A DNA stretch of 47,071 nt from Alphaproteobacteria bacterium (GTDB lineage: Bacteria; Pseudomonadota; Alphaproteobacteria; Caulobacterales; Aquidulcibacteraceae): the NCBI GenBank assembly GCA_030430715.1, contig JAUIJZ010000014.1, positions 1 to 47,071 on the forward strand, written 5' to 3'. The position numbers were made by a program, and so were the translations under genes. The notes beneath the pieces were generated by a model. That model made no database searches. It was not told the origin of the DNA and worked only from the letters and a program-made list of their open reading frames with translations. Within the stretch, counting starts at the first letter, position 1; each line of letters opens with the position of its first letter. Shown here piece by piece: positions 33,301 to 47,071 of the stretch.

Positions 33301-33443
33301 GTGAAGACGCCGAAATCGAGATTCGGCATTTGGTTGATCGGCAGGCGGCCGAACGCGGTCACGCCGGCGAAGATCAGCGCCAGCATCAACATGATCGGGC
33401 CGATCGGATTCCGGATCGCCGTCGCCGAGATATTCCAGGCCAT
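30363..33443 (-). CDS. RND efflux permease (AcrB/MexB family)
   Basis: A 1026-residue inner-membrane pump. Membrane helices occur at about 13-30, then a cluster at 335-500 and another at 855-1005, with two large periplasmic domains between. The paired aspartates D401-D402 in TGVLVDDAIVEIENI are the proton-relay residues of helix 4. The late LLMLMGLVTKNSILLVDFAVERM and the duplicated architecture are typical of hydrophobe/drug RND pumps. It lies three bases after the adaptor gene, in the order regulator, adaptor, pump. Substrates cannot be inferred. Confidence 0.94.
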   Translation of the reverse strand: MAWNISATAIRNPIGPIMLMLALIFAGVTAFGRLPINQMPNLDFGVFTVTVAQPGASPVELETQIAQRVESALTAVEGVRRTSTNISPGVSTTTVELEGNADISRAVEDARDALGRIRSDLPADITEPVIARIDAASIPLGYWAAEGEGMTPADISWFVDNELQRELLAIPGVSQVTRLGGVDREIRVDLDPARMLAYGVSADQVSNQLRALNADLPGGQARVGGQAQSIRTLGGAHSLEELADTRIIGAEGRVARLGDIATVTDASSDLDSVSRYNGQPVIGFMVMRTRDGSEVQVYERVVERLHELEDEYPGVTLPNIATSVDFTKGLHEGSIHALLEGALLACLVVFLILRDWRATLIAAAAIPLSILPTFAAIEILGFTLNMVTLIALALVTGVLVDDAIVEIENIVRHMRQGKSAYRASLEAADEIGLAVVATTFTIIAVFLPVSFMSGNMGTFFREFGLTVACAAFFSLVVARLITPLMSAHILSNHGHDHEREPGVLTLAYQDALQWAIRHPWKTIGGGGAVFVASLGLAMMVPFIVIPRYDPNMVTMRVDIPPGTPVLEADRVTQRMSDRIRQMPEVNGVFVSITGTAGTATSADLYVPLVSREDRDSSDFALQQQIRPLMAEFPDYRTTFVQDQGGGQGYDITVQFVGNEPAAVNSAGERLAEAMRASDMLTDVRISSALRRPEIQILPRDADLARLGVTSSSLASAVRIATSGDAEQNLPKFNLVDRQIPIRVALRQDNRSDLDAIRSLPVPSNNGPPVRLDSVADVQFSLGEAALERRDRMRSVSVTANVVPGIILSQAQSAVFAMPEAQDQPGASLAVSGQTEDSEEMFEQFGTAMIWGVILIYAVLVLLFRDFFQPLTIMTALPLSIGGAFVALIVANQPLSLFALIGLLMLMGLVTKNSILLVDFAVERMHAGMSRNAALMEAGMKRARPIIMTTFAMSGGMVPAALGWGVDGTLRQGMGAAVIGGLMLSTLLSLIFVPAMFVLIDRLERWVRRMLPDRAAREEQSFHTPAE

Positions 33444-33446
33444 GTG

Positions 33447-34718
33447 TTAGCCTTTCCGGCCGCGAAGCTCGTTCGGCTGAGCGGCTTCTTCTTCAGGTGC
33501 GGGGCGGGCTTCACCGGCCGGCGCGAGTGGACGCACTTCCTCGCCGTCGCGCAGGAACGCGGCGCCGGAGCCGACAACGCGCAAGCCGGCGTCGAGACCG
33601 GAAACCACCTCGATCATTTCGCCGCTGCGCGCGCCGAGGCTGACGTTTCTGCGGTGCACGACGTTGGTGTCGTCGACGACGAACACATAGGCTTGTCCTT
33701 CATCGTAGAGGACGGAGCTTTGCATCAACGCGATGGACTCGCGCGCTTCCATATGCGCCTGGCCGCGCAGATACATGCCGGCGCGCACGCGGCTGCCGCT
33801 GGGCAGGGCGAACAAGGCTTCGCCGGTGCGCGTCCGGCTGTCGATCGAAGCGGGCGTCCGGCTCAACGTCGCCTGAACGGTTGAACCGTCCACAAGCGTG
33901 AAGGTGGCGCGCTGACCGCGCTCAAGCGCGAGCGCCTCCGCTTCGGAGACTTGCGCGGCCACTTCAAGTTCGTTGCCCGCGGCGATGCGATAGAGCACTT
34001 GCCCATCGACATTGCGGCCAATTTCGGCGCTGCGGTCGATCACGAGCCCGGAATCCGGCGCGCGCACATAGCCGCCGCCCAAGCGCGTATTCACTTCCTG
34101 TAATTGCGCGCGCGTGGCGGCGAGACGCGCATCGGCGGCGAGCGCGGCGGCGCGGCGCTGTTCAATGGCTTCGGTGGAGAGGGCGCCGGAATCGCGGATC
34201 GATTCCGCGCGTTCATACTCGCCGCGCGCACGCACGGCGGCCGATTGCGCTTCCGCGACCGACGCTTGCGCGGCGCGGATTTGCGCCTGCGCCAGAGACG
34301 TATCGAGCCGCGCCATGGGCTGGCCGCGCCGTACGGTGTCGCCTTCGTCCACCAGCAATTCGAGAATGCGCACGCCTGTGGCGGGCGCCGCGACTTGGAT
34401 GTCACGCACGGGGCGCGCTTCGCCGTTCAGCGCGATGACGGGGGCAAAGCTATGGATGCCGACGGCCGTCACAGTCACGGCTTGGGTGGAGGCCACATCG
34501 GCCATGGTGATCCGTTCGCTGCCGAGACGGCTGAGAACGGCCAAGAGGACAACAAAGGCGACGATGCCGGCGCCGAGCATCATTACGATTTTGCGGCGGC
34601 GCGCTGCTTCGTCCGGCGCTTCGGTTGCGCGCGCCCAGGCGCGCCCGCTCGCATTGGCGGCGCGTTTGAACAAGCCTTCGGCGCGCGAAAACAGTTCGGG
34701 GGGGAGGGGCTTATTCAT
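33447..34718 (-). CDS. RND periplasmic adaptor (membrane fusion protein)
   Basis: A 423-residue adaptor linking the permease to an outer membrane channel. After a basic cytoplasmic stretch, one membrane anchor lies at about 42-60 (IVMMLGAGIVAFVVLLAVL). Then come the lipoyl-like halves (VAAPATGVRILELLVDEGDTVRRGQPMARLD and GGYVRAPDSGLVIDRSA), a coiled-coil hairpin (about 135-200), the beta barrel and a proximal domain. There is no lipobox, so it is anchored by a helix. The ATG at 34718 overlaps the tetR stop (ATGA). No Shine-Dalgarno is evident, consistent with coupling to tetR. Confidence 0.92.
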   Translation of the reverse strand: MNKPLPPELFSRAEGLFKRAANASGRAWARATEAPDEAARRRKIVMMLGAGIVAFVVLLAVLSRLGSERITMADVASTQAVTVTAVGIHSFAPVIALNGEARPVRDIQVAAPATGVRILELLVDEGDTVRRGQPMARLDTSLAQAQIRAAQASVAEAQSAAVRARGEYERAESIRDSGALSTEAIEQRRAAALAADARLAATRAQLQEVNTRLGGGYVRAPDSGLVIDRSAEIGRNVDGQVLYRIAAGNELEVAAQVSEAEALALERGQRATFTLVDGSTVQATLSRTPASIDSRTRTGEALFALPSGSRVRAGMYLRGQAHMEARESIALMQSSVLYDEGQAYVFVVDDTNVVHRRNVSLGARSGEMIEVVSGLDAGLRVVGSGAAFLRDGEEVRPLAPAGEARPAPEEEAAQPNELRGRKG

Positions 34719-35314
34719 GAACGGAGGCTCAAATAGCGTTCGAGAAAGGCGCGGAATTGCGCATCGGCGACATCGCCGCTGGCGTCGCCCAGAAAAGCGC
34801 GCCGAAGGCCGATGCCTTCGATCGCGGCCATAATCGTGTGCGCGGCGAGTTCGGGGTCCAGATCCGCGGCGGTCTCGCCGCGCTTCTGCGAGGCGCGCAC
34901 GGCCGAAGCCGTGACGCGGATGCTGTTGGCGTCTGCGCGGCGCATGGTGGCGGAAATCGTCTCGTCGCGGATGGATTCGGCGATGATGTCGGCCATCAGC
35001 GCGCCGTCGCCTTCGGACAGCTTGTGAAAGAAACCGGACGCGCTCTGGCATAGCGCCGCGACAAGCCCGTCCTGCTCGGCCATGCGCAGGAACGCGGCGT
35101 CAGCGCCTTCTCGCGCATCTTCGGCGATGGCGCTGATGATTTCGCTCTTGGACGCAAAGTAGTGGTAAATGGCGCCCGCACTGACGCCGGCCTCGGCACA
35201 GATCTCCGCCATCGTCGTTTGATGGAAACCACGGCGGCGGAAACAGGCTATGGCCGCGTCCATAATCTGGTGGCGGCGGCGTTCTGCCAGGGCGGGGTTA
35301 GCGAGACGGGCCAA
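34715..35314 (-). CDS. TetR-family repressor of the RND operon
   Basis: A 199-residue regulator with the TetR N-terminal HTH (about 12-60: IMDAAIACFRRRGFHQTTMAEICAEAGVSAGAIYHYFASKSEII) and a divergent C-terminal ligand domain. The start is TTG at 35314 with GGAG five bases upstream; no better ATG exists. It heads the operon tetR, adaptor, RND pump, and is divergent from an outer membrane factor gene. A palindrome in the shared region is the probable operator, so the protein likely represses both sides and releases on drug binding. Confidence 0.9.
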   Translation of the reverse strand: MARLANPALAERRRHQIMDAAIACFRRRGFHQTTMAEICAEAGVSAGAIYHYFASKSEIISAIAEDAREGADAAFLRMAEQDGLVAALCQSASGFFHKLSEGDGALMADIIAESIRDETISATMRRADANSIRVTASAVRASQKRGETAADLDPELAAHTIMAAIEGIGLRRAFLGDASGDVADAQFRAFLERYLSLRS

Positions 35315-35367
35315 GCGGACTCCAATAATCTCGGCCTTGCCGAGCTATGCTGCTCTGCATATAAAAC

Positions 35368-35379
35368 GAATGTTCATTC
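35368..35379. promoter_or_regulatory. Candidate TetR operator, GAATG-TT-CATTC
   Basis: Perfect five-base arms around TT, in an AT-rich island of the 180-base gap between the tetR operon and the outer membrane factor gene. A further AAATGTT follows at 35383-35389. Such AATG/CATT palindromes are usual for TetR repressors. Confidence 0.55.
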
Positions 35380-35494
35380 TACAAATGTTAAAAGGGCGAA
35401 GGGTCAAGCCGCAATTTTGCTGGGGAGGCTCCAAAAATTGCGATAGGCGGCCTGCTTGCCGGCCTTGCCCGTGAGATCTTAAAGCAAGGATATC

Positions 35495-36928
35495 ATGAAT
35501 TTAGCCGGACCCGCCTTCCGCACCTGCGCCTGCGCCCTGGCGGCGACGCTCGCCTTATCGGCGTGCTCAACCATGCCACGGGAACGGCCGGAGCCGCCGC
35601 CGCTCGCCTCGGTTTGGCAGGACGCACCTGCGGGCGCCGCCATGCCGGTGACCGATTGGTGGCATGAATTCAACGATCCGGCCTTGGATGCGCTGGTCGC
35701 GGACGCCCTTGTCCGAGGGCCCTCGGTGGAGCTGGCGGTGCTGCGCCTGCGCGAAGCCCGCGCGGTGTCGCAGACCACGGTGACCCGATACCTGCCTGAG
35801 CTGACGGCGACCGGACAGGGCCAATATACCCGTCTCGTTGACGGTCAATCGGCCACCCTGACCCAGCGCGAGCAAATGAGCGGCTCCTACGGCGTGCAAG
35901 TGGGCTGGGAAGTGCCGTTGTTCGCGCGGCTGGAGGCGGCAGTGCGCGGCGCGCGCGCCAATACGTCCAGCGCGGTCGCCGATGTCCGCGCAGCACAGGT
36001 TGCGCTCGCCGCCGACGTGGCGCGCGCCTACGTGGATTTGCGTGCGGCGCAGCAAAGCCGCGTCGCCATCGCCCGCTCAATCGAAACGGCGGATGAATTG
36101 GCGCGCATTCTCGCCATTAGCGCCGAAGCGGGGCTGACCGCAGAAGCCGACGCCGCCGATGCACGCAGGCTTGCTGAAAGCACGCGCGCGCGTTTGCCGG
36201 GACTGGTGATTGAAACACGCCGCGCGGAAAATGTGCTCGCGGCGCTGCGCGGCGTTGCGCCCGGGACGGAAGATGAAGCGGTGCGCGCTTCGCTGGCGGA
36301 GACGGCGCCGGTGCCGCATCCGCAGCTGGCCAGTGCGCCCGCGGCGCCTGCCGATCTTGTGCGCTTGCGCCCTGATGTCGCCCGCGCTGAAGCGCAGGCG
36401 CTGCTAGGGGCGTCGAACTTGGCCAATGCCCGCGCGGATTTGCTGCCGCAATTGAATCTCAGCGGTTCGGTGACGACGACCGAAGCCATTATTGGCGATC
36501 CGCTCGGCGTGGGCGCGACCATCGCCTCGGCCACGCCTGTCATTTCCATTCCGCTGTTCGATTGGGGCCGGCGCTTCGCCGCCATTCGTCAGCGTGATGC
36601 GCAATTCGAGCAATTATTGCTGCAATACCGCCAAACCGTCGTCGAAGCGGTGGGCGAGGCTTCCAACGCATTGGTCGCGCTCGATCAGGGCCGATTGCGT
36701 TTGGACTCGGCGCAGATCGCCGAAACCGCGGCCGAGACAACGGCGCGCGGATCGCGCGCGGCGTATGAAGCAGGCATTCAAAGCCTGACGGATCGTCTGC
36801 GTTCAGAGCAGCAATTGATCGATGCGAGCCTCACGCGCATCGACGCCGAGGCGCAATTGGCGCGCGCGGCGATCTCGACCTATCGCGCTTTTGGCGGCGG
36901 TCCTGCTCTGGAAACCGAGGCGCGCTAA
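35495..36928 (+). CDS. TolC/NodT-type outer membrane efflux lipoprotein
   Basis: A 477-residue outer membrane factor. The signal peptide ends in the lipobox LSAC with Cys24, so it is a lipoprotein of the NodT/OprM class. Two OEP repeats of long alternating helices follow (about 60-245 and 265-465), including DLVRLRPDVARAEAQALLGASNLANARADLLPQLNLSG. AAGGA lies six bases before the ATG. Divergent transcription from the tetR-adaptor-pump operon, with an operator between, argues that it completes the same tripartite pump. Confidence 0.93.
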   Translation: MNLAGPAFRTCACALAATLALSACSTMPRERPEPPPLASVWQDAPAGAAMPVTDWWHEFNDPALDALVADALVRGPSVELAVLRLREARAVSQTTVTRYLPELTATGQGQYTRLVDGQSATLTQREQMSGSYGVQVGWEVPLFARLEAAVRGARANTSSAVADVRAAQVALAADVARAYVDLRAAQQSRVAIARSIETADELARILAISAEAGLTAEADAADARRLAESTRARLPGLVIETRRAENVLAALRGVAPGTEDEAVRASLAETAPVPHPQLASAPAAPADLVRLRPDVARAEAQALLGASNLANARADLLPQLNLSGSVTTTEAIIGDPLGVGATIASATPVISIPLFDWGRRFAAIRQRDAQFEQLLLQYRQTVVEAVGEASNALVALDQGRLRLDSAQIAETAAETTARGSRAAYEAGIQSLTDRLRSEQQLIDASLTRIDAEAQLARAAISTYRAFGGGPALETEAR

Positions 36929-37040: not shown

Positions 37041-37072
37041 TTGACGCACTAATGAACAACGGTGTTGATTAG
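37041..37072 (+). promoter_or_regulatory. Candidate -35 and 24-base imperfect palindrome before the monooxygenase
   Basis: CTAATGAACAAC (37049-37060) and GGTGTTGATTAG (37061-37072) match at 10 of 12 positions as an inverted repeat, centred 37060/37061. TTGACG at 37041-37046 abuts it as a possible -35 element. It ends 54 bases before the ATG. It looks like an operator for a regulator outside the window. The remainder of the 198-base gap has nothing identifiable. Confidence 0.5.
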
Positions 37073-37126
37073 CCTGCCGCCGTCGCATTAGACGATAAGG
37101 CAAGGTCATAACGGGGTAGGATAAGA

Positions 37127-38956
37127 ATGAAGTGCAATCCCAGCGATACGCCCTCGCCAGAGCAAGTCGATATTCCTGCGCTGCGGGAGCGTTACCGCAA
37201 AGAGCGTGAAAAGCGCATGCGCCGTGAGGGCGAGGGACAGTATTTCCGTCCTGCCGGTCAGGTGGTGGAGGATTTCTCCGCCGATCCGCACACGCCGATC
37301 AAACCGCGCGACCCGGTCAATGAAGACATCGATTGCATCGTCATCGGCGCCGGCTGGGGCGGCATCATGGCCGGCTATTATCTGACCAAAGCCGGCGTCA
37401 CCAATTTCCGCCATGTCGATACCGCGGGCGATTTCGGCGGCGTTTGGTACTGGAACCGGTATCCCGGCATTCAGTGCGATAATGAATCGTATTGCTACCT
37501 GCCGCTGCTCGAAGAGACCGGCTTCATGCCGTCGAAGAAGTTCGCCGACGGCTGGGAGATTTACGAATACGCGAAGTCGATTCCGAAGAAGTTCGGCTTT
37601 GCCGATCAGGCGCTGTTCCACACGCATGTCAAAGGATTGCGCTGGGACGACAACATCAAGCGCTGGCGCGTATCGACCAATCGCGGCGATGATATCCGCG
37701 CGCGCCACATCATTATGGCGTGCGGCGTGCTCAACATGCCGAAGCTGCCGGGCATCGAAGGCATCGATACGTTCAAGGGCAAGCTGTTTCATACCGCGCG
37801 CTGGGACTACGATTATACCGGCGGCAGCTATCGTGAGCCGAAGCTCGACAAGCTCGCCGATAAGCGCGTGGCGCTCGTCGGCACTGGCGCAACGGCGATC
37901 CAGGCCGTGCCGAACCTCGCCAAATACGCCAAGCATCTCTACGTCATCCAGCGCACGCCCTCGTGCGTGGACGCGCGTCCCAATCCGCCGACCGATAAGG
38001 AATGGGCGAAGACGCTGCAGCCCGGTTGGCAGAAAGAGCGTCAGGATAATTTCCATCGCGGCGCGATGGAGGCGTTCAAGCCGGGTGAGCCGGATTTGAT
38101 TTGCGATTTCTGGACCGAGATCAATCGCAACATGGCCGCCAAAATGCAGGCGCAAGGCTGGCCGCAGCTCTCCCTGGAGAAGTTCATGGAGATGCGCGAC
38201 ACCGAGGATTATCTGGTCATGGAGCGTATGCGCAATCGCGTCGATACGTTCGTGAAGGACCCGGCGACGGCCGAGGCGCTCAAGCCGTATTATCGCTTCA
38301 TGTGCAAGCGCCCGCTGTCGAGCGAGGTGTACTATCCCGCCTTCAATCAACCCAATGTCGAATTGCTGGATGTCTCGGAAACCAAAGGTCTCGAGCGCAT
38401 CACCGACAAAGGCTTCATCGTCGACGGCAAGGAATATCCTGTCGATTGCATCATCTTCGCCAGCGGCTTTGAAGTGACCAGCGCGCTGGAGCGGCGCTGG
38501 GGCATCGATGTCGTCGAAGGGCGGGAAGGCGAGTCCATTTACGACCATTGGCGCGAGGGGCCGAAAACGCTGCACGGCACCACGACGCACGGATTCCCGA
38601 ACCAGTATTTCATCGGCTACATCCAGGGCGGCCTGAACGCTTCGGTGACCGAGCAATTCGGCCGTCAGGGCGAGCACATCGCCTACATCATCTCCGAAGC
38701 GCTGAAGCGGGGCGTGCAAGCGGTCGAAACCAGCCAAGAGGCGCAGGACGCTTACGTGCGCCGCTTCGAGGAATTGCTGCCGGATATGTCGGCGTTTCAG
38801 GCCGAATGCCCGCCCAGCTATTTCAACAATGAGGGCGACGCGAAAGCGCCCTGGGCGCTGTTCCGTCAATGGGGCCCGGGCTGGAGTGATTTCCAGAACA
38901 TGTTGCAGGCGTGGCGCGACAAGGGCGACCTGGAGGGCATGGACCTCAGGAAGTGA
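37127..38956 (+). CDS. Baeyer-Villiger-type flavin monooxygenase
   Basis: A 609-residue FAD- and NADPH-dependent class B monooxygenase. The FAD fingerprint IGAGWGG spans residues about 73-79, the NADPH fingerprint VGTGATA spans 251-257, and the Baeyer-Villiger signature F-x-G-x3-H-T-x2-W is complete at 216-226 (FKGKLFHTARW). Such enzymes insert oxygen next to a ketone, giving an ester or lactone. The N-terminal 65 residues are a charged extension before the fold. AGGA lies six bases before the ATG. It begins the catabolic gene row, 30 bases ahead of the Rieske gene. Confidence 0.93.
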   Translation: MKCNPSDTPSPEQVDIPALRERYRKEREKRMRREGEGQYFRPAGQVVEDFSADPHTPIKPRDPVNEDIDCIVIGAGWGGIMAGYYLTKAGVTNFRHVDTAGDFGGVWYWNRYPGIQCDNESYCYLPLLEETGFMPSKKFADGWEIYEYAKSIPKKFGFADQALFHTHVKGLRWDDNIKRWRVSTNRGDDIRARHIIMACGVLNMPKLPGIEGIDTFKGKLFHTARWDYDYTGGSYREPKLDKLADKRVALVGTGATAIQAVPNLAKYAKHLYVIQRTPSCVDARPNPPTDKEWAKTLQPGWQKERQDNFHRGAMEAFKPGEPDLICDFWTEINRNMAAKMQAQGWPQLSLEKFMEMRDTEDYLVMERMRNRVDTFVKDPATAEALKPYYRFMCKRPLSSEVYYPAFNQPNVELLDVSETKGLERITDKGFIVDGKEYPVDCIIFASGFEVTSALERRWGIDVVEGREGESIYDHWREGPKTLHGTTTHGFPNQYFIGYIQGGLNASVTEQFGRQGEHIAYIISEALKRGVQAVETSQEAQDAYVRRFEELLPDMSAFQAECPPSYFNNEGDAKAPWALFRQWGPGWSDFQNMLQAWRDKGDLEGMDLRK

Positions 38957-38986
38957 AACGCGAACGCCGAAGGGAAGGAGAACGTC

Positions 38987-40372
38987 ATGGATAGTGCGGG
39001 CAGCATCAAGAACGTCAGCGTCGAAGAACTGGCTGAAGCCGTCACGTTTCCGGTGGAAGCTTACGTCTCGCCGGAATACGCGCGGGCGGAAGATGAAAAA
39101 TTGTGGGGCCGGGTGTGGCAGCATGCCCGGCGCGTCGAGGAAATCCCGAATGTCGGCGATTTCATCACCTATAATGTCGGGCGCGAGTCCATCATCATCA
39201 TCCGCACGGCCAAGGATAAGATCAAAGGCCTCTACAATGTTTGCTCGCACCGTGCGCGTCAGCTGATCGACACGCCGCCGGACCAGCACAGCGCCAGCGG
39301 CTTCCGCAGCGGCTTCACCTGCGGCTTCCACGGCTGGCGTTACGATCTGAACGGCAAGTGCACGTTCAAGCTCGACGAGCCCGATTGGAAAGGCGCGCTG
39401 GACAGCGAAGAGCGCACGCGTCTCACCGAGGTGAAAGTCGACACCTGGGGCGGCTGGATCTACATCAACATGGATCCGGACAGCGTTTCGCTGAAGGATT
39501 ATCTCGGCGACGCGGGCCGTATTCTCAGCCCGTTCGAGTTCGAGAAGATGCGCTACAAATGGCGCCAATGGGTGATCTTCGACTGCAATTGGAAAACCGC
39601 GATCGAAGCCTTCATGGAGCCGTACCATGTCGAAGGCACGCACACGCAGATGCTCGAGCACGGCCAATACTATGCTTACAGCAAGGCCTATGATCTGCAT
39701 GGCGTGAGCGGTTTCGACGAGCGCGATCCATCCTTGAAGATGAAGCAGAGCGGCACGATTACGCGCGCCGGCAAAGGCGCCGATCCGCGCGCCTCCACCT
39801 ACAATCTGCAAAACGAGATCTACACCACGGTCAATAAGGCCAGCACGACCGAGACGCTGGTGAACGCCGCCAAGCGTCTGATCGATGAATTGCCCGAAGG
39901 CACGCCGGCCCCGGATGTGATCAAGCATTGGCTTGCTTCGGCGCGTGAAGACGATGCGCGCCGCGGCGTGATCTGGCCGACGCTCACGCCGGATCAGCAA
40001 GCGGAAGCAGGGCTCGCCTGGAGCGTATTCCCGAATATGTCGATCCTGCAGGGGATCACGTTCGCGCTTTGCTATCGCGCGCGTCCGTATGGCGACGATC
40101 CGAACAAATGCATCTTCGAATCCTACGCGATCGAACGCTTCCCTGAAGGCCAAGAGCCCAAGACCGAATGGGTCTATGCCGAGCCGACGGCCGATAGATG
40201 GGGGCTGGTGCTCAGCCAGGATTTCTCGAACATGGCGGCGGTTCAGCGCGGCATGCATTCACGCGGTTTCCGCGGCACGCTGCCCAACCCGCACCAAGAG
40301 CGCAAGGTCACGAACTTCCACCGTAACCTCGCCAACTTCATGGGTACGGGCGGTCTGAGCCTGTTGAAGTAA
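38987..40372 (+). CDS. Rieske non-heme iron oxygenase, alpha-subunit type
   Basis: A 461-residue oxygenase. The Rieske ligands are C86-x-H88 (CSHRARQL) and C112-x2-H115 (CGFHGWRY). The spacing of 23 residues between the pairs is longer than the usual 15-17. The mononuclear iron site shows H214 and H219 in EPYHVEGTH; the carboxylate ligand is in the C-terminal part and I could not place it. No beta subunit, ferredoxin or reductase gene is present in the window, so electrons must come from elsewhere. AAGGAG lies eight bases before the ATG. It probably hydroxylates or demethylates a cyclic substrate. Confidence 0.93.
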   Translation: MDSAGSIKNVSVEELAEAVTFPVEAYVSPEYARAEDEKLWGRVWQHARRVEEIPNVGDFITYNVGRESIIIIRTAKDKIKGLYNVCSHRARQLIDTPPDQHSASGFRSGFTCGFHGWRYDLNGKCTFKLDEPDWKGALDSEERTRLTEVKVDTWGGWIYINMDPDSVSLKDYLGDAGRILSPFEFEKMRYKWRQWVIFDCNWKTAIEAFMEPYHVEGTHTQMLEHGQYYAYSKAYDLHGVSGFDERDPSLKMKQSGTITRAGKGADPRASTYNLQNEIYTTVNKASTTETLVNAAKRLIDELPEGTPAPDVIKHWLASAREDDARRGVIWPTLTPDQQAEAGLAWSVFPNMSILQGITFALCYRARPYGDDPNKCIFESYAIERFPEGQEPKTEWVYAEPTADRWGLVLSQDFSNMAAVQRGMHSRGFRGTLPNPHQERKVTNFHRNLANFMGTGGLSLLK

Positions 40373-40399
40373 AGCCGTCCGGCGGCATCGCGACGGCTT
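40372..40399. other. Hairpin in the gap between Rieske and ThDP genes
   Basis: AAGCCGTC pairs with GACGGCTT over a 12-base loop, starting at the last base of the Rieske stop codon. There is no T-run. Further on, CTGACG at 40474-40479 and TATAGT at 40490-40495 look like a weak promoter for the next gene. The rest of the 155-base gap shows nothing. Confidence 0.35.
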
Positions 40400-40527
40400 A
40401 CGCTGGAGCGATACCGTCCCGGGCAAACCTCATTACCCGTTGCGACGTACCGGAAAGTTGGGCAAATCCCGCCCTGACGAAAAGCGCGGTATAGTCGCGG
40501 CGAACGCGGAAAATTCGGAGTAGATCA

Positions 40528-42291
40528 GTGTCCTATGATGATGCGGCGCCTGCGAAGGCCAACCCCAAAGGCGTGAAAGTTTATCAGCGCATCCTTGAGC
40601 TGTTCGAGGCCGAAGGCGTCAAAACCATGTTCGGCATTCCCGATCCGAACTTCGTCCACCTGTTTGTTGAGGCGGAAAAGCGCGGCTGGGATATCGTCAC
40701 GCCACACCACGAATTGTCCGTCGGCATGATGGCCGAAGGGTATGCGCGCATGACCGGCAAGCCGGGCCTCGCCATCGCTACGCTCGGTCCGGGCATCGCC
40801 AATGCGGCCGGCGCGATGATGTGCGCGAAAGTCGAAAATACGCCTGTGATCTTCATTGGCGGTCAGCGCGGGCGCGTGACCGAGCGGCGCGTGCGCCGCG
40901 GCCGTATCCAATTCATCCAGCAGGAAGACCTGTTCAAAAATTCGGTGAAGTGGAGCACCAGCATCGAATACGGCGATCAGGTGGATGAAATTTTCCGCCA
41001 GGCTTTCCGAGTCTGCCAGTCCGGCACGCCAGGCCCGGTCTATATCGAGTATCCGTCGCATGTCATTCAGGACGATCTCGATGTGCCGCCGGTGCTGCCG
41101 CCGGAAAAATATCGTCTGGTCGAGCCAGGCGCCGATGGCGAGATGATCAAGAAGGCGGTCGAGCTGGTCAAAGCCGCCAAGAATCCGATCCTGTTCGTCG
41201 GCCATGCCGTGCAGTGCGCGCGCGGCGGCGAGAAGGTGAAGGCGCTGGCCGATCTGATGCAGTGCCCGGTGATTCAAACCTCGGGCGGCACGGCCTTCAT
41301 CAAGGGGCTGGAAGATCGCACCTTCCCGTATGGCTTCTCGACGGTTGCGAACGAAGCGGTGCGCAATTCCGATCTTTGCATCGCCATCGGCACCGAACTC
41401 GGCGAGCCGTGCCATTACGGCAAGTGGCGCCATTGGGCGGAAAAGAACGCCGAGCGTAAATGGATTTATGTCGAGCTCGACCCGACCGCGATCGGCGTGA
41501 ACCGTCCGATCGATGTGCCGCTCGTCGGCGATCTGCGCACTGTGGTGCCGCAGCTCACCGAAGCGCTCAAGGACAGCCCGCGCAAAGCGTCGCCCGATCT
41601 GGCCAAATATATTGAGGCCGACAAGAAGCGGCTCAAGGATCTCGCGGAAAGTGCGCCGAACCTGAACGGTCCGATGCACACCGCGCGTTGGGTTGTGGAA
41701 GCGACCAAGGCGTTCCCGGAAAACGGCATCCATGTGCGCGATGGCGGCGGCACGGTGATCTTCACCTGGACCTACCTGCAGTGCAAACCGCATGACGTGA
41801 TCTGGAATCAGAATTTCGGTCACCTTGGCACGGGCTTGCCGTATGCGATCGGCGCGTCGGTTGCCGATGGCGGCAAGCGCCCGGTGCTGTTCACCACCAG
41901 CGACAGCGCGTTCCTGTTCCATATCGGCGAACTGGAGACGGCTGCGCGTCTTAATCTGCCCATCGTCACGGTTGTCGGCGTCGACAATCAATGGGGCCTC
42001 GAAGTCGGCGTCTATAAGCGCACGTTCGGGCACGGCAAAACCAATGAGCCGGGCGTGCATTGGAGCAAGGATGTCCGCTTCGACAAGATCGCCGAAGGCT
42101 TGGGCTGCAAAGGCATGTATGTCGAAAAGGCCGAAGAGCTTGGCCCCGCGATCAAGGAAGCGTTCGCCAGCGGCAAGCCCACTGTCATCCACGTGCCGAT
42201 CGATCCGGTCGCCAACCATGGCGGCCTCGAAAACAAGGATACGCCGAACTACGACGAATTCCGCACTTGGTATGCCGAAGGCAGCCAATAA
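40528..42291 (+). CDS. Thiamine diphosphate enzyme, acetolactate synthase-like
   Basis: A 587-residue ThDP enzyme of the large acetolactate synthase/benzoylformate decarboxylase/2-hydroxyacyl-CoA lyase superfamily. The N-terminal PYR domain carries the activating glutamate E62 in HHELSVGMMAEGYAR. A central TPP-binding domain follows, then the PP domain with metal ligands D459 and N487. The usual GDG motif reads SDS here. The start is GTG at 40528 with GGAG about eight bases upstream. In this gene row a C-C bond lyase or carboligase making or using an aldehyde is plausible, because an aldehyde dehydrogenase follows. It is not clearly an amino-acid biosynthetic acetolactate synthase: no small subunit is adjacent. 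Confidence 0.9.
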   Translation: MSYDDAAPAKANPKGVKVYQRILELFEAEGVKTMFGIPDPNFVHLFVEAEKRGWDIVTPHHELSVGMMAEGYARMTGKPGLAIATLGPGIANAAGAMMCAKVENTPVIFIGGQRGRVTERRVRRGRIQFIQQEDLFKNSVKWSTSIEYGDQVDEIFRQAFRVCQSGTPGPVYIEYPSHVIQDDLDVPPVLPPEKYRLVEPGADGEMIKKAVELVKAAKNPILFVGHAVQCARGGEKVKALADLMQCPVIQTSGGTAFIKGLEDRTFPYGFSTVANEAVRNSDLCIAIGTELGEPCHYGKWRHWAEKNAERKWIYVELDPTAIGVNRPIDVPLVGDLRTVVPQLTEALKDSPRKASPDLAKYIEADKKRLKDLAESAPNLNGPMHTARWVVEATKAFPENGIHVRDGGGTVIFTWTYLQCKPHDVIWNQNFGHLGTGLPYAIGASVADGGKRPVLFTTSDSAFLFHIGELETAARLNLPIVTVVGVDNQWGLEVGVYKRTFGHGKTNEPGVHWSKDVRFDKIAEGLGCKGMYVEKAEELGPAIKEAFASGKPTVIHVPIDPVANHGGLENKDTPNYDEFRTWYAEGSQ

Positions 42292-42390
42292 GCGGACGCG
42301 GACGTGTTCGGGCTGTTCAAAAAACGGCGCGGGGCGCCAAAGATTGACCAACACGGCGCCAAGCGCGCCGCAGGGACGGAAGAGCGAGCT

Positions 42391-43830
42391 ATGCGCGAAT
42401 ATCTGAAGTTCTATATCGACGGCCAATGGGTCGATCCGATCGAACACACGACGGCGACGACGACAAATCCCGCCACGGAACAACCCTCGGGCAAGATCGC
42501 GCTCGGCACGTCCGCTGACGTGGATCGCGCGGTGAAAGCCGCGCGCAAAGCGTTCGAAACCTGGTCGCAGACCTCGCGCGAAGAACGCGTGGCCGTGCTG
42601 GAGCGCATCCTGGAAGAGTTCGGCAAACGCGCTGCCGATCTCGGCAAAGCCGTCACCGAAGAAATGGGCGCTCCGGCCTTCTTGGCCAACGGATTCCATA
42701 TTGGCCTTGGACAAGGGCATCTCAGCACCGCGATCGAAGTGCTGAAGACGTACGAGTTCGAGGAAGAAAAGGGCCTCACGCGCTTCGTGAAAGAGCCGAT
42801 CGGCGTTGTCGGCATGATCACGCCGTGGAATTGGCCGATCAATCAGGTGACGGTGAAAGTGTTTCCCGCCATCGCGTGCGGCTGCACCGTCGTGCTGAAG
42901 CCCTCGCAGGAATCGCATTTCTCGGCGCAGATCCTCGCCGAGATTTTCGACGCCGCCAAAGTGCCGCCCGGCGTGTTCAACATGGTGCAGGGCAAGGGCT
43001 CGGTGGTGGGCGATGCGATCGCGCGCCATCCGGGCGTCGACATGGTGTCGATCACCGGTTCGGAAACGGCGGGCGTGCAGGTCGCCAAGGCCGCAGCCGA
43101 TACGGTGAAGCGCGTGACGCAGGAACTCGGCGGCAAGGGCGCGAACATCATTCTCGACGATGAGGATTTCGCTGTGAACGTCGGCAAAGGCGTCGGCGGC
43201 GTGATGATGAATTCCGGTCAGACCTGCAGCGCCAGCACGCGCATGCTGGTGCCAAAATCACGCATGAACGATGCGATCGCCGCCGCTAAGGACGCCGTGG
43301 CGCAAGTCAAAGTCGGCGATCCGACCGGCGCGGATGTCACGATGGGGCCCGTGGTGTCGAAGGCGCAATTCGTCTCGATCCAGGATTACATCCAGAAGGG
43401 CATCGATGCGGGCGCAACGCTCGCCGCCGGCGGTCCGGGACGGCCCGACGGCATCGAGAAGGGCTATTATGTAAAGCCGACCGTGTTCGCCAATGTCACC
43501 AACGATATGGTGATCGCGCGCGAGGAAATCTTCGGTCCGGTGCTGTGCATCATTGGCTATGACGATCTCGACGACGCCGTGCGCATCGCCAACGATTCCG
43601 ATTTCGGGCTTGGCGGCAATGTCGCGGGCAAGGATTTGGAGAAGGTCCGCGCTGTTGCGCGCCGGATGCGCGCGGGCGCGATCTTCATCAATGACGGCTT
43701 CGACTTCAACATGGCCTTTGGTGGATACAAAAAGTCCGGCAATGGACGTGAATGGGGCGAGCACGGCTTCCAGGAATATGTTGAAGTGAAGTCGCTGGTC
43801 GGCTGGACGCCGCCGCCGGCAGCCGAATAG
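42391..43830 (+). CDS. NAD(P)-dependent aldehyde dehydrogenase
   Basis: A 479-residue ALDH superfamily enzyme. Catalytic C279 lies in NSGQTCSAST, the general base E245 in QELGGKGANI, and the nucleotide-binding ITPWNWPI and SITGSETAG motifs are intact. The ATG at 42391 has GGAAGAG six bases upstream and gives the standard start MREYLKFYIDGQWV. An in-frame GTG at 42304 would add 29 basic residues. It probably oxidises the aldehyde released by the ThDP enzyme; this is inferred from adjacency. Confidence 0.93.
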   Translation: MREYLKFYIDGQWVDPIEHTTATTTNPATEQPSGKIALGTSADVDRAVKAARKAFETWSQTSREERVAVLERILEEFGKRAADLGKAVTEEMGAPAFLANGFHIGLGQGHLSTAIEVLKTYEFEEEKGLTRFVKEPIGVVGMITPWNWPINQVTVKVFPAIACGCTVVLKPSQESHFSAQILAEIFDAAKVPPGVFNMVQGKGSVVGDAIARHPGVDMVSITGSETAGVQVAKAAADTVKRVTQELGGKGANIILDDEDFAVNVGKGVGGVMMNSGQTCSASTRMLVPKSRMNDAIAAAKDAVAQVKVGDPTGADVTMGPVVSKAQFVSIQDYIQKGIDAGATLAAGGPGRPDGIEKGYYVKPTVFANVTNDMVIAREEIFGPVLCIIGYDDLDDAVRIANDSDFGLGGNVAGKDLEKVRAVARRMRAGAIFINDGFDFNMAFGGYKKSGNGREWGEHGFQEYVEVKSLVGWTPPPAAE

Positions 43831-43851
43831 GAGTCAGCAACGGGAGGCGAC

Positions 43852-44385
43852 ATGCACGCGCCTGACAACAGGCTGCAAGTGCTGCTCGACCGCGATGATA
43901 TTCGCGATTGCATTGCCCGCTTGGCGCGCGGCGAGGATAGGCGCGATCCGGATATCATCAAGGCTTGCTTCTGGCCCGACGCCTCCTGCGATTTCGGCAT
44001 ATTCGCCGGCGCTTTCGATGAATATCTGGCCTGGGTCACGCCGGGCTCGCCGGCGATCCCGGTGACGCAGCATGTGCTGGGGCAGAGCGTGATCGCTTTG
44101 AATGGCGACGCTGCTTCGGCGGAAACGCACGTCACGGCGTATCATCGCATCAATATGGGCGCCGAAGAGCGCGATATTGTTTTGGGCGGTCGTTATCTCG
44201 ACACGCTGCAAAGGCGCGACGGCGCCTGGCGCATCGCGCAGCGCACCATGCTTTACGATTGGAGCCAGAATTTCGGCAAATCCGTCGATTGGTCGCAAGG
44301 CCTGATGGGCGCCCCGTTCAGCGCCGAACATTTCACCGGCCGCGCCAACGGCGATTTCAGCGAACGCTTTTTCGGTAAGGGCTGA
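43852..44385 (+). CDS. SnoaL-like (NTF2-fold) protein, first copy
   Basis: A 177-residue protein of the SnoaL-like domain 4 group, an NTF2-like cone fold. The N-terminal helix DRDDIRDCIARLARGEDRRDPD, then FWPDASCDFG, and the late YLDTLQRRDGAWRIAQRTMLYDW strand pair are characteristic. Members include isomerases, hydrolases and dehydratases of cyclic compounds, as well as ligand-binding proteins. The start has GGGAGGCG eight bases upstream. It sits 14 bases before the SDR gene and has a relative just beyond the SDR. Confidence 0.87.
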   Translation: MHAPDNRLQVLLDRDDIRDCIARLARGEDRRDPDIIKACFWPDASCDFGIFAGAFDEYLAWVTPGSPAIPVTQHVLGQSVIALNGDAASAETHVTAYHRINMGAEERDIVLGGRYLDTLQRRDGAWRIAQRTMLYDWSQNFGKSVDWSQGLMGAPFSAEHFTGRANGDFSERFFGKG

Positions 44386-44399
44386 AGCGGAGGCGGGGC

Positions 44400-45284
44400 A
44401 TGGGTTCGCTGACAGGGAAGGTCGCGATCGTCACCGGCGCCAGCCGCGGCATTGGCAAGGGCATGGCGCTCGCGCTCGGGCAGGAAGGCGCGAGGGTGTA
44501 TGTCACCGGCCGCACGCTGACGCCCGGCGCGCATGATTTGCCGGGTACGATTGGTGAAACAGCGGCGCAAGTCGATAAGCGCGGCGGCAAGGGCGTTGCC
44601 GTCAAGGTCGATCACAGCAAAGATGTTGAAGTCGCGGCGCTGTTCGACCAGGTGCGGCGCGAGTGCGGACGGCTCGACATCCTCGTCAATAATGCCTTTT
44701 CGCTGCCGGACGATCTGACCGACAAGAATCCGTTCTGGACTAAGCCGCTTTCCAATTGGGAGATGGTCGATGTCGGCGTGCGTTCTAACTTCACGGCGGC
44801 ATGGCACGCGGCCAAGATCATGGCGCCGCAAAAATCGGGATTGATCGTCGCCATCTCCGGCTATGTCGGCGTGTCGTACACCTATGGCGTCGTGTTCGGC
44901 ACCTGCAAATCGGCGGTGGACCGCATGGCGCGCGACATGGCGATCGAACTTGAGCCCTACAATGTCGCATCGGTTTCGCTGTGGCAGGGGCTGACGCTGA
45001 CCGAGCGGGCCGAGCGTAATCTTGCCAGCATACCGGGGCTCAAAGGCGCATCGGCGACACGGCCGGAGGATGCGTGCACGCCCGAATTTCCGGGCCGCGT
45101 CATCGCGGCGATGGCCAACGATCCGGAGATCATGAAGCGCTCGGGCGGCACCTTCATCACCGCCGAACTTGCGCAGGAATATGGCGTGACCGATGTGGAC
45201 GGAAAAACCGTTCCCTCCCTGCGTCATCGCCGCGGCGCGCCGATCTGGCGCCCGATCGCGGAGGTTTCCGGTCATGGAGCCTGA
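44400..45284 (+). CDS. Short-chain dehydrogenase (DHRS1-like), catalytic Tyr replaced by Phe
   Basis: A 294-residue SDR. The cofactor loop TGASRGIG begins at about 13, with R38 after strand 2 suggesting NADP, and NNAFSLPD replaces the common NNAG. The catalytic region reads VFGTCKSAVDRMA: Lys170 is kept, but Phe166 stands where the Tyr of YxxxK should be, and Ser lies in VAISGYVG. The overall sequence resembles DHRS1-type SDRs. If the base call is right, normal hydride-transfer acid/base chemistry is impaired. It overlaps the next gene by 11 bases. Confidence 0.88.
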   Translation: MGSLTGKVAIVTGASRGIGKGMALALGQEGARVYVTGRTLTPGAHDLPGTIGETAAQVDKRGGKGVAVKVDHSKDVEVAALFDQVRRECGRLDILVNNAFSLPDDLTDKNPFWTKPLSNWEMVDVGVRSNFTAAWHAAKIMAPQKSGLIVAISGYVGVSYTYGVVFGTCKSAVDRMARDMAIELEPYNVASVSLWQGLTLTERAERNLASIPGLKGASATRPEDACTPEFPGRVIAAMANDPEIMKRSGGTFITAELAQEYGVTDVDGKTVPSLRHRRGAPIWRPIAEVSGHGA

Positions 45285-45825
45285 AAAGCTGGCGCGCTTG
45301 GAGGCGCTTCTGGAACGGCAGGAGATCGCCGATTGCCTGACGCGGTTCAGCCGCGGCATGGATCGCTTTGATCGCGCGTTGTTTCTTTCGGCGTTTCACG
45401 AGGACGCCGTGATCGCCGCGGGGTCTTTCGTCGGCAGCGCGGCGGATTGCTACGATTGGGCGATGCCCATGCACGAGGCGGGGCAGGTGGCCACGCAGCA
45501 CAATCTGCTCAATCTGACCTGCGAGATTGACGGCGCAACAGCGCATACGGAAACCTATTATCTGTTCGCCGGGCGCAATCGCGACGAAAGCAATTGGCTC
45601 GCCGGCGGCCGCTATCTCGACAGGCTGGAAAAGCGCGATGGCGCGTGGCGCATCGCATTCAGAACCAATGTGATCGAATGGTCCGGACTGGCGCCGACCA
45701 TGCCGATCCCGTTCGCGGACATCCCAGACATCACCGGCAATGGCGCGGCCGCGCGCAGCAAAGACGATCCATCCTATCGCCGTCCGTTACAGAACCGGCG
45801 GAAAAAGCAGACCCCGCCAGCTTAA
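45274..45825 (+). CDS. SnoaL-like (NTF2-fold) protein, second copy
   Basis: A 183-residue SnoaL_4 protein with the same layout as the one before the SDR: LLERQEIADCLTRFSRGMDRFDRALFLSAFHEDAV, then YLDRLEKRDGAWRIAFRTNVIEW. GGAGG lies nine bases before the ATG at 45274, inside the SDR gene, so translation is coupled. The C-terminus is basic (RRPLQNRRKKQ). It resembles the first copy in motif order rather than being a near-identical duplicate. Its TAA stop shares the palindrome TTAA with the IclR stop on the other strand. Confidence 0.87.
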   Translation: MEPEKLARLEALLERQEIADCLTRFSRGMDRFDRALFLSAFHEDAVIAAGSFVGSAADCYDWAMPMHEAGQVATQHNLLNLTCEIDGATAHTETYYLFAGRNRDESNWLAGGRYLDRLEKRDGAWRIAFRTNVIEWSGLAPTMPIPFADIPDITGNGAAARSKDDPSYRRPLQNRRKKQTPPA

Positions 45826-46637
45826 GCGGCTTCGCTGCTGAGCTGATTGGAGAGTGCTTGCGCCGATTGCAGCATCGCCTTTTGCAGCGAGGGCAGGCCC
45901 GCCCTTTTCATGCTGCTGGTAATGCCCATCGCCACCAAGGCGTGGCTTAGCTTGTCGCGGGTTTTCCAAACCGGCGCTGCTAGGACTGTGATGCCGGAAA
46001 TGTAATTGCCCTCATCGACGGCGAAGCCTTGCGTGCGTGTTTCGGCGATCTGCTTTTTCCATTGCTCGAAGCTTGGCGGATCGTCCCAGCGCAGCGTCTT
46101 GAAGCGCGCCTCCAATTCGTCCTGGGCGTGGCCGCCGAACGCGGCGATGCAGCGCCCGGTCGCGCTGATCAGCGCCGGAAACCGGCTGCCGACCTGAGCG
46201 CTCAATTGCAGATTTTGGCCCACCTGTGAGGCCGCCACGACGACAATATGATCCAGGCCGACGATGTGCACGCCGAGCATGGTGACATCGAAGCGCTGAC
46301 TGATGCGGTCGAGCACGGGCTGAGCCAGATCGTTGAAGCGGTCGCGCCGTAGCCAGTGGCGCGCGAGCGTTAGCACGCCTGCTTCCAGGGAATAGCGCTT
46401 GGTTTCAGGATCGAACGCGACGAATTCCTCCGCCACCAGCGCGCGCAGCACGTAGAGACAGGTGCTCGGCACCAATCCCAATTCACGCGCGATCGGCTGT
46501 AAGCCCATCGGCGCGTCGCTCTTGCCTAAAAGGCGCAGCACCGCTGCCGCGCGCGAGATCGCCGGCGCTTTGCTGGTTTCCATCGCCTTGGCGAGGTCCC
46601 GGTCGGGGCGGGCGGTTCGTTTTGCGGGCGCTGCCAT
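45822..46637 (-). CDS. IclR-family transcriptional regulator
   Basis: A 271-residue regulator. The winged HTH spans about 25-85 (ISRAAAVLRLLGKSDAPMGLQPIARELGLVPSTCLYVLRALVAEEF), followed by the IclR effector domain (about 95-265) with SATGRCIAAFGG and VDEGNYISGITVLAAPVW. The ATG at 46637 has AGGGAC upstream; longer readings run through the promoter region. It is divergent from an acyl-CoA-synthetase-type gene, and a palindrome lies between them. IclR proteins commonly control catabolic operons in response to an aromatic acid or another pathway intermediate, so this is the likely local regulator. Confidence 0.92.
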   Translation of the reverse strand: MAAPAKRTARPDRDLAKAMETSKAPAISRAAAVLRLLGKSDAPMGLQPIARELGLVPSTCLYVLRALVAEEFVAFDPETKRYSLEAGVLTLARHWLRRDRFNDLAQPVLDRISQRFDVTMLGVHIVGLDHIVVVAASQVGQNLQLSAQVGSRFPALISATGRCIAAFGGHAQDELEARFKTLRWDDPPSFEQWKKQIAETRTQGFAVDEGNYISGITVLAAPVWKTRDKLSHALVAMGITSSMKRAGLPSLQKAMLQSAQALSNQLSSEAA

Positions 46638-46662
46638 AATGTCCCTGGGCTGAGTATTCAAT

Positions 46663-46683
46663 ATATAGAACACCATTCTATAT
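46663..46683. promoter_or_regulatory. Candidate IclR operator, ATATAGAA-N5-TTCTATAT
   Basis: Perfect eight-base arms with a five-base spacer, 25 bases upstream of the IclR start and about 92 bases before the acyl-CoA-synthetase-type ATG. The GAA-N5-TTC core is a usual layout for IclR-type operators. It would allow autoregulation and control of the divergent gene. Confidence 0.6.
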
Positions 46684-46775
46684 TTGCAACAGTCGATATT
46701 TGTGGCATTGACGCCCCGACGGAATGCGCGCGTTCTTCCTGGATCGTCGCGACATAACAAAAAGCGTTGGGAGCG

Positions 46776-47071
46776 ATGGCTAAGCTGACCGAATATTCGA
46801 GTTACGCGGACGCGCAGGCGCACGCGAACTCCGAGGCGCTGTGGGAGCTGTTCGACGGCGACCGCGAGCATCTGAACATCGCGCACGAGTGCATCGTGCG
46901 CCACGCCGGCTCGGGCCGCACGGCCGTGCGCATCGCCCATGCCGATGGCTCAGACGAAATCTTGAGCTTCGACCAGATTGCCGCCGGCGCCGCGCGCTTT
47001 GCGCACTGGTTGAAGGAGAAGGGCATTCAGCCCGGCGACCGCATCGCCTTCATGCTTGAGCCGTCGCTGCC
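46776..47071 (+). CDS. AMP-forming acyl-CoA synthetase-type protein, N-terminal part (3' truncated by window edge)
   Basis: An open frame starts at ATG 46776 and runs off the end at about 98 residues. The segment LSFDQIAAGAARFAHWLKE, then KGIQPGDRIAFMLEPSLP, is the characteristic N-terminal part of AMP-binding ligases. The catalytic motifs lie beyond the window. The GGGAG ribosome site is unusually close to the ATG (two bases). Divergent from iclR, it may supply CoA activation for the pathway encoded upstream. Acyl substrate unknown. Confidence 0.8.
   Translation, partial: MAKLTEYSSYADAQAHANSEALWELFDGDREHLNIAHECIVRHAGSGRTAVRIAHADGSDEILSFDQIAAGAARFAHWLKEKGIQPGDRIAFMLEPSL

Follow-up and report, generated by a model that had tools for sequence, protein, structure and literature searches.

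The stretch of DNA analysed here (hereafter the window, 47,071 nucleotides) is the entire contig C126 of a 3.24-Mb, 172-contig, 98.8% complete genome of an alphaproteobacterium of the Aquidulcibacteraceae. Among solved RpoB structures its protein comes closest to 7ye1, an entry from Caulobacter (2373 bits, the runner-up scoring 1808), so that the host is probably alphaproteobacterial; a 16S search of the genome gave no match. Towards its end it carries a real, conserved and mobile catabolic core, formed by genes for a Baeyer-Villiger-type flavin monooxygenase (BVMO), a Rieske oxygenase, a thiamine diphosphate (ThDP)-dependent lyase-like enzyme and an aldehyde dehydrogenase (ALDH). The enzyme families are known, no description of the combination was found, and we infer its chemistry and substrate. 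That the genes form a conserved catabolic unit is very likely. One interpretation of the data, to which a probability of about 0.48 is given, is that the window holds one module of a horizontally spread catabolic system, in which a ring or chain would be opened by oxygenases and the BVMO, and carbon would be removed by a ThDP lyase together with the ALDH. The original prediction for this DNA had proposed an undescribed catabolic pathway, and this is supported both by conservation of the core across Actinomycetota and Pseudomonadota and by the open-access literature, in whose titles and abstracts no account of a BVMO-Rieske-ThDP-ALDH cluster was found (most subscription papers and all preprints fell outside this scope).

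Conservation and spread of the four-gene core

Genes in the window were assigned by open reading frame (ORF) calling combined with Pfam and NCBIfam searches. The four core genes lie on the plus strand and encode the BVMO (37127–38956, 609 amino acids, Pfam Pyr_redox_2/FMO-like), the Rieske oxygenase alpha subunit (38987–40372, 461 amino acids, Pfam Rieske and Ring_hydroxyl_A), the ThDP-dependent enzyme (40528–42291, 587 amino acids) and the ALDH (42304–43830 with an alternative ATG start at 42391, 508 amino acids, Pfam Aldedh E 1.1e-148).

Conservation of the core was assessed in loci collected by a ThDP-alignment scan of named genomes. Of its 358 confirmed candidates the 80 best, picked by ThDP alone, were analysed, and co-occurrence was scored at 45% identity and 40% coverage. 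Since ThDP was the sole criterion of choice, the presence of the other genes is read independently of it. The ThDP gene was accompanied by a Rieske gene in 68 of the 80 loci, by an ALDH gene in 67 and by a BVMO gene in 65, and all four were present in 59, although many of these loci come from related mycobacteria and nocardiae and the counts are therefore not independent. Among the 67 loci with full flanks, 53 held all four genes. The ALDH gene lay no more than 400 bp from the ThDP gene in 66 of the 67 ALDH-bearing loci, and the BVMO gene was on the same strand as the ThDP gene in 64 of 65. Neither BVMO nor Rieske was found in seven loci, five of which are shorter than 16 kb. Plasmid searches also identified BVMO, Rieske and ThDP genes together in Sphingobium sp. 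RAC03, Sphingobium V4, Mycobacterium branderi and Rhodococcus sp. USK13. A gene-neighbourhood search had been suggested as a check on the predicted pathway, and by this measure the core families do recur together across genomes.

Some loci had features of their own. At L012 (8232) and L014 (8236) the main ThDP gene is directly preceded by a 53–54% identical copy, and the locus also holds CaiB and Rieske genes. In Sphingobium RAC03 (L004, 21926–24949) the matches to ALDH and SMP-30 are spread over more than one frame, with no coding sequence listed, and the genes may be damaged; in Sphingobium V4 (L007) each is one single match. A plasmid of Sphingobium yanoikuyae A3 (L111, 14989–18810) carries a Rieske-TauD-Rieske arrangement with a Tn3 transposase a few kb away, the first Rieske enzyme being 51% identical to that of the window.

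The core is rare among close kin. A ThDP match at E 1e-100 was found in only one of 200 relatives besides the window genome (G022, of the same genus, about 50% identical), and BVMO matches at E 1e-180 were found in five of 299 genomes of the order, window genome included, the other four being 46–49% identical. In G022 (L113, 7754–19588) the ThDP (50%) and ALDH (68%) genes form a pair near MaoC-type, HpcH/HpaI coenzyme A (CoA)-lyase, SMP-30, GST and TonB genes, with no BVMO or Rieske gene within the 20 kb fetched, an arrangement that fits a separable lyase-plus-ALDH unit. The window ThDP enzyme is 86% identical to that of a metagenome-assembled genome (MAG) labelled Nevskia and 63–65% identical to those of Sphingobium. 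Rarity in the order together with high identity to distant ThDP genes suggests that the core was gained horizontally. Absence of the neighbourhood from related genomes had been named as grounds for giving up the prediction; such absence is seen among close kin, where only G022 of the 200 relatives gave a match, and is not seen among distant kin, where the core was complete in 59 of 80 loci.

The ThDP-dependent enzyme and its oxygenase partners

A profile search with the ThDP family returned an ancestral acetolactate synthase first, followed by 2-hydroxyacyl-CoA lyases/synthases and oxalyl-CoA decarboxylases; the AcHACL-type lyase scored 175 bits against the profile, with low overall similarity. 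Three residues, Glu62, Gln128 and Glu492, are invariant in all 87 rows (84 distinct) of an alignment that covers 78 of the 80 loci together with the copies from the window and the plasmids. Glu62 corresponds to the cofactor-activating Glu (E65 in AcHACL) and Gln128 to the active-site Gln (Q128 in AcHACL), in a column common to the lyase/synthase 8vzc in the profile alignment. In the same alignment Glu492 falls, free of gaps, onto an acetolactate synthase Val taken for V484 of the Bacillus enzyme, and the available extract of PMC13327070 equates V484 with AcHACL Glu493, the Glu that protonates the C2alpha carbanion. Of the enzymes tabulated in that extract, only AcHACL, a putative mycobacterial 2-hydroxyacyl-CoA lyase and sulfoacetaldehyde acetyltransferase carry the Glu and Gln pair. 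From these residues, Glu492 being placed by one of two alignments, the ThDP enzyme resembles an actinobacterial 2-hydroxyacyl-CoA lyase.

Two other assignments were rejected, namely oxalyl-CoA decarboxylase and membership in the curated acetolactate synthase models. In oxalyl-CoA decarboxylase a Glu replaces the active-site Gln (PMC8760513, in the part available), whereas Gln is found at that position in all 87 rows; and the best NCBIfam acetolactate synthase model gave 270 bits against a cut-off of 509. The AlphaFold model of the enzyme has a mean predicted local distance difference test (pLDDT) score of 77.6, with residues 493–505 below 50. As for the C-terminal lid and CoA binding of AcHACL-type lyases, a TWY motif is near-invariant at 580–582, and the model is weak toward the C terminus.

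Several observations weigh against the lyase assignment. When the C-terminal part of the window enzyme alone was aligned with the same synthase, a two-residue gap opened exactly at Glu492; the homology of this residue therefore depends on the alignment, and Glu492 would be the counterpart of AcHACL Glu493 by one of two alignments. Sulfoacetaldehyde acetyltransferase carries the identical Glu and Gln pair. A fold search with the model scored lyase, HKA synthase and acetolactate synthase structures nearly alike, and decarboxylases too, so that sequence and fold searches do not tell lyase from synthase. That the ThDP enzyme would cleave its substrate to an aldehyde, to be oxidised next, had been part of the original prediction; such a step, with the ALDH as the oxidising enzyme, gains support from the tight ThDP-ALDH pairing and, less firmly, from the active-site residues. 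The ThDP enzyme probably hands a carbonyl product to the ALDH. That its substrate is a 2-hydroxyacyl-CoA can be put forward only tentatively, the estimate having been set lower because of the gap at Glu492.

It could be that the same pathway operates with a different ThDP reaction, the enzyme splitting an acyloin or 1,2-diketone, decarboxylating a 2-oxoacid or acting in the manner of sulfoacetaldehyde acetyltransferase, and so giving a carbonyl product without 2-hydroxyacyl-CoA chemistry. We regard this as possible, with the odds against it. The fold also matches benzaldehyde lyase well, hydroxyketones could arise from BVMO and short-chain dehydrogenase/reductase (SDR) chemistry, and the gap at Glu492 and the pair shared with sulfoacetaldehyde acetyltransferase bear on this alternative as well; the extract of PMC13327070 further lists the Gln as common to benzaldehyde lyase and cyclohexane-1,2-dione hydrolase. 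However, at the Glu position the same extract gives Thr for benzaldehyde lyase, Asn for cyclohexanedione hydrolase and Leu for benzoylformate decarboxylase, and the decarboxylases that do have the Glu carry His, not Gln, at the other position. Note that these residue arguments depend on the profile alignment placing Glu492.

Type I BVMOs are defined by the motif FxGxxxHxxxW[PD] flanked by two Rossmann motifs. The window enzyme has the motif (FKGKLFHTARWD, at residue 216) between GAGWGG (74) and GTGATA (252), and by this sequence definition it is a type I BVMO. Its best NCBIfam match, neopentalenolactone D synthase (PtlE), was below the equivalog cut-off (621 against 1100 bits), and its best PDB match was 5mq6. 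The Rieske enzyme has its cluster ligands, and C86/H88/C112/H115 and E207/E211/H214/H219 are invariant in six aligned sequences including the window. A bridging Glu at the place of Glu211 is typical of the carnitine/glycine-betaine type, and the best NCBIfam match was GbcA, far under its cut-off (108 of 670 bits). No Ring_hydroxyl_B beta subunit accompanies the Rieske gene: the two NTF2-fold proteins encoded downstream both match SnoaL_4, with no beta-subunit model at E 0.001, and the first of them matched a putative beta subunit in the PDB weakly (E 0.0023).

Accessory genes, partner modules and a shared palindrome

Downstream of the core, the plus strand encodes a first SnoaL_4 NTF2-fold protein (SnoaL1, 43852–44385), an SDR (44400–45284) and a second SnoaL_4 protein (SnoaL2, about 45274–45825, its frame readable from 45193), all assigned by Pfam. 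The seven plus-strand genes that had been predicted were thus all recovered in their places, between 37127 and 45825. Their spacing had been described as short or negative, which holds for gaps of 30, 12, 21 and 14 bases and for the 11-nt overlap of SDR and SnoaL2 and does not hold for the 155-bp gap between Rieske and ThDP. An IclR-family regulator and an acyl-CoA synthetase (ACS) had been placed after them, and both are present: the regulator (45822–46637, 271 amino acids, ATG at 46637; sub-cut-off NCBIfam matches to the PcaR/PcaU subfamily and BhcR) is encoded on the minus strand and reads towards SnoaL2 and away from ACS, and the ACS gene (46776–47071, plus strand, AMP-binding) is cut by the contig end after its first 98 codons (296 bases). 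Between them, in the divergent promoter, lies a conserved AT-rich box (46657–46689), seen in an alignment of eight upstream regions and clearest in seven.

The SnoaL1-SDR-SnoaL2 trio was found in five of the 80 loci (one Mycolicibacterium, four Nocardia), always behind ThDP-ALDH in window order, and in a different order in Steroidobacter (L105). On two Sphingobium plasmids an SMP-30-type gene replaces the trio, and IclR and ACS then follow as in the window; the window ACS is 80–81% identical to that of Sphingobium, and an ortholog of the IclR gene adjoins ACS on both plasmids.

A wider gene set was obtained with a custom gene caller and clustering at 45% identity over the 80 loci, a procedure that recovers ThDP in 79. 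The recurring partners were SDR2 (63 loci), a CaiB CoA-transferase (48), SDR1 (45), the SMP-30-type protein (36) and TauD (24). For the SMP-30-type protein the matching models are SGL and ScyE-like, and our guess is that it may be a lactonase. A second module comprises CaiB, an acyl-CoA dehydrogenase, a RipC/CitE-like lyase, a member of the acetyl-CoA hydrolase/transferase family, an enoyl-CoA hydratase and a second Rieske type; it recurs, whole or in part, in Steroidobacter, Sinimarinibacterium, Nevskia, Zhongshania and RAC03. The window genome carries this module on C110 (CaiB 73%, acyl-CoA dehydrogenase 76%, CoA lyase 65%, CoA-transferase 69%, hydratase 80%), its Rieske gene being apparently split over C110 and C118. 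A second gene of the Rieske I type lies on C133 (68%), ahead of a P450, and a second BVMO on C3 (59–62%). On C34 the order is IclR (partial)-ACS-MaoC-CaiB-SMP-30, with MaoC at 83% and SMP-30 at 50%. This contig holds a second IclR/ACS start, and its positions 1–512 (L140) are 84% identical, over 514 bases, to the last 511 bases of the window; because the DNA identity is only 84%, C34 is a paralog or strain variant and not a plain continuation of the window. Apart from TauD, all of these recurring partners, the two SDRs included, have their place on other contigs of the window genome.

A 22-bp palindrome, TAATGAACA-N4-TGTTGATTA, is located at 37050–37071, 55 bp upstream of the BVMO start, and is the sole such site in the window genome when up to three mismatches are allowed. 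Palindromes of the same spacing precede BVMO, SDR1 or RieskeII genes in relatives. Distinct places were counted in nine genomes, again with up to three mismatches: Steroidobacter has 10, nine of them on its two module contigs (C7 and C9); Sinimarinibacterium seven, five on C4; the Nevskia MAG four, all on C28; Zhongshania 14, five on C10; G206 four, two on C178; and Sphingobium RAC03 and V4 two and three, one in each preceding BVMO. The reversed pattern gave three matches over the nine genomes against 77 strand-matches for the true one. In 34 fetched stretches, 23 sites were found with at most two mismatches and a free centre, none inside a called gene, whereas shuffled sequence gave 0 on average; 12 of the 34 stretches had been fetched around sites already found, so that this placement is not independent. 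Neighbours of the 23 sites include RieskeII-ThDP-CaiB, SDR1/IclR, ACS/IclR, KstD-like, CaiB-like and E1-like genes, as well as transporters and regulators. One interpretation is that the palindrome is a putative operator tying the system together in some hosts. The box at 46657–46689 is different from it. A TetR homolog is conserved, with a palindrome site 132 bp upstream of it in Sphingobium V4 and one past its 3' end on Steroidobacter C9, and is a candidate reader of the palindrome.

Other features lie alongside. Two antisense open frames on the minus strand, of 1050 amino acids (37106–40258, opposite BVMO-Rieske) and 834 amino acids (40525–43029, opposite ThDP-ALDH), were dismissed as genes because conservation sits in the plus-strand frames; they are probably a by-product of codon bias. 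Immediately upstream of the cluster, 30363–36928 holds HlyD-type and outer-membrane efflux genes, beside which a long minus-strand ORF (30363–33443) may encode their pump.

Proposed pathway, substrate and known systems

In the proposed pathway the Rieske enzyme, together with the second Rieske type and in other hosts also with TauD, would hydroxylate a bulky substrate, probably an isoprenoid-like compound that is polycyclic or branched. An SDR would yield the ketone, which the BVMO would convert to a lactone or ester, and the SMP-30-type protein may hydrolyse this product. The acid would be activated with CoA by ACS or CaiB and then hydroxylated at C2. The ThDP enzyme, acting like the actinobacterial 2-hydroxyacyl-CoA lyase, would release formyl-CoA and an aldehyde for oxidation by the ALDH, and short branched acids would exit via the acyl-CoA dehydrogenase/hydratase/RipC-like lyase module.

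Hints to the substrate come from the surroundings of the core. A KstD-like flavoprotein gene follows a palindrome site in Sinimarinibacterium and another lies on C161 of the window genome, both below NCBIfam cut-offs (497 against 789 bits for C161); pimeloyl-CoA-dehydrogenase-type (pimC-like) and IpdE2-like acyl-CoA dehydrogenases, again all below cut-off, occur in wider islands; and an mce-type import operon lies near a Rieske I gene in M. branderi. These genes suggest a lipid-like cyclic compound. A polycyclic isoprenoid-like substrate is conceivable and somewhat doubtful, and to call it steroid- or terpenoid-like is a guess. The most far-reaching form of the proposal, which we judge unlikely as a whole, is a widespread, phylum-crossing pathway that would degrade polycyclic or branched isoprenoids (steroid-, triterpenoid- or terpenoid-like) without extradiol cleavage: rings would be opened through Rieske/TauD hydroxylation and Baeyer-Villiger oxidation, and a formyl-CoA-releasing ThDP lyase with the ALDH would shorten chains blocked for beta-oxidation, under one palindromic operator in some hosts.

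The wider scheme is also weakened on several counts. Among the same 80 loci, SnoaL1 was present in six, SDR in 10, SnoaL2 in eight, IclR in five and ACS in three. No TauD ortholog was found in the fetched contigs of the window genome (best about 28%). The palindrome also occurs at places away from cluster genes, and none of its four places in Solimonas lies on the cluster contig C25 or on C14.

A variant of the known 9,10-seco steroid pathway in which the BVMO attacks a side chain or the D ring is improbable. The KstD-like and pimC-/IpdE2-like genes, under their cut-offs as noted, and the mce-type genes of M. branderi would suit it, as would the hosts, several of which are likely steroid degraders. 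However, at E 1e-10 no extradiol dioxygenase of the TIGR03213 type (HsaC/TesB), the one extradiol family searched, was found in the window genome, in Steroidobacter (G202) or on the M. branderi plasmid; matches in G200, G201, G203 and G204 were on contigs other than that of the cluster, and the RAC03 plasmid gave one weak, partial match. This result argues against the ordinary 9,10-seco route in the window genome. The consulted portions of a bile-acid review (PMC8399759) and a steroid-genomics paper (PMC4810484) contained 0 occurrences each of a Baeyer-Villiger or a thiamine enzyme.

Degradation of norisoprenoids (abscisic acid, ionone), with the BVMO acting on a methyl-ketone side chain, appears rather remote. 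For Rhodococcus, PMC9599779 proposes that a BVMO converts dehydrovomifoliol to rhodococcal acid. The beta-hydroxy acid unit so formed could be taken off by a CoA lyase; but the available part of PMC9599779 names no genes, the window BVMO looks like enzymes for bulky ketones (the PtlE model and PDB 5mq6), and the proposed steps need neither two Rieske types nor a ThDP lyase. That the genes are chance neighbours from common families with no joint function is highly improbable, for although every family involved is large and the ThDP match is so rare among relatives, 59 of 80 loci selected by one gene hold the complete four-gene core and the region of a paralogous ThDP gene in the window genome (L114) is without BVMO, Rieske or ALDH partners. 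Lumichrome degradation, which also employs Rieske and ThDP enzymes, was rejected: in its cluster, as given in the extract of the commentary PMC12752717, the ThDP enzyme is heterodimeric and comes with a molybdoprotein and an extradiol dioxygenase.

If the proposed oxygenase-BVMO-lyase pathway is correct, a catabolic system without an assigned substrate would be carried by several gammaproteobacteria, by some sphingomonads and by many mycobacteria and nocardiae. Bulky molecules would then have a naturally occurring set of oxygenases, BVMO and lyase, one-carbon biotechnology would gain a candidate lyase that releases formyl-CoA, and the turnover of persistent natural compounds could be followed by a marker. 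Because the palindrome recurs, how far the pathway extends can be tested.

The system shares parts with several that are known. Cyclic-ketone BVMO operons (cyclohexanone, cyclododecanone) follow a dehydrogenase-BVMO-hydrolase-ALDH logic; the window cluster has the same logic and adds Rieske enzymes and a ThDP lyase. With AcHACL-type 2-hydroxyacyl-CoA lyases (PMC8760513 and PMC13327070, in extract) the ThDP enzyme has in common a POX-type architecture, the cofactor Glu and the active-site Gln, to which one of the two alignments adds the Glu that protonates the carbanion, but overall similarity is low and the window enzyme stands in an oxygenase-rich cluster beside an ALDH. Likeness to 9,10-seco steroid degradation lies in the KstD-like flavoproteins, paired acyl-CoA dehydrogenases and CoA-transferases of the wider islands, whereas the window genome gave no TIGR03213-type extradiol ring-cleavage enzyme at E 1e-10. 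The second module is like itaconate degradation (CoA-transferase, hydratase, RipC lyase) in its RipC/CitE-like lyase, CaiB transferase and hydratases, and differs in that its matches are all below NCBIfam cut-offs, in its extra acyl-CoA dehydrogenase and in the company of Rieske, BVMO and ThDP genes. The order of the proposed chemistry, finally, is that of peroxisomal alpha-oxidation (hydroxylase, HACL1, ALDH, acyl-CoA synthetase), except that the proposed system is bacterial and its hydroxylase would be a Rieske enzyme or TauD.

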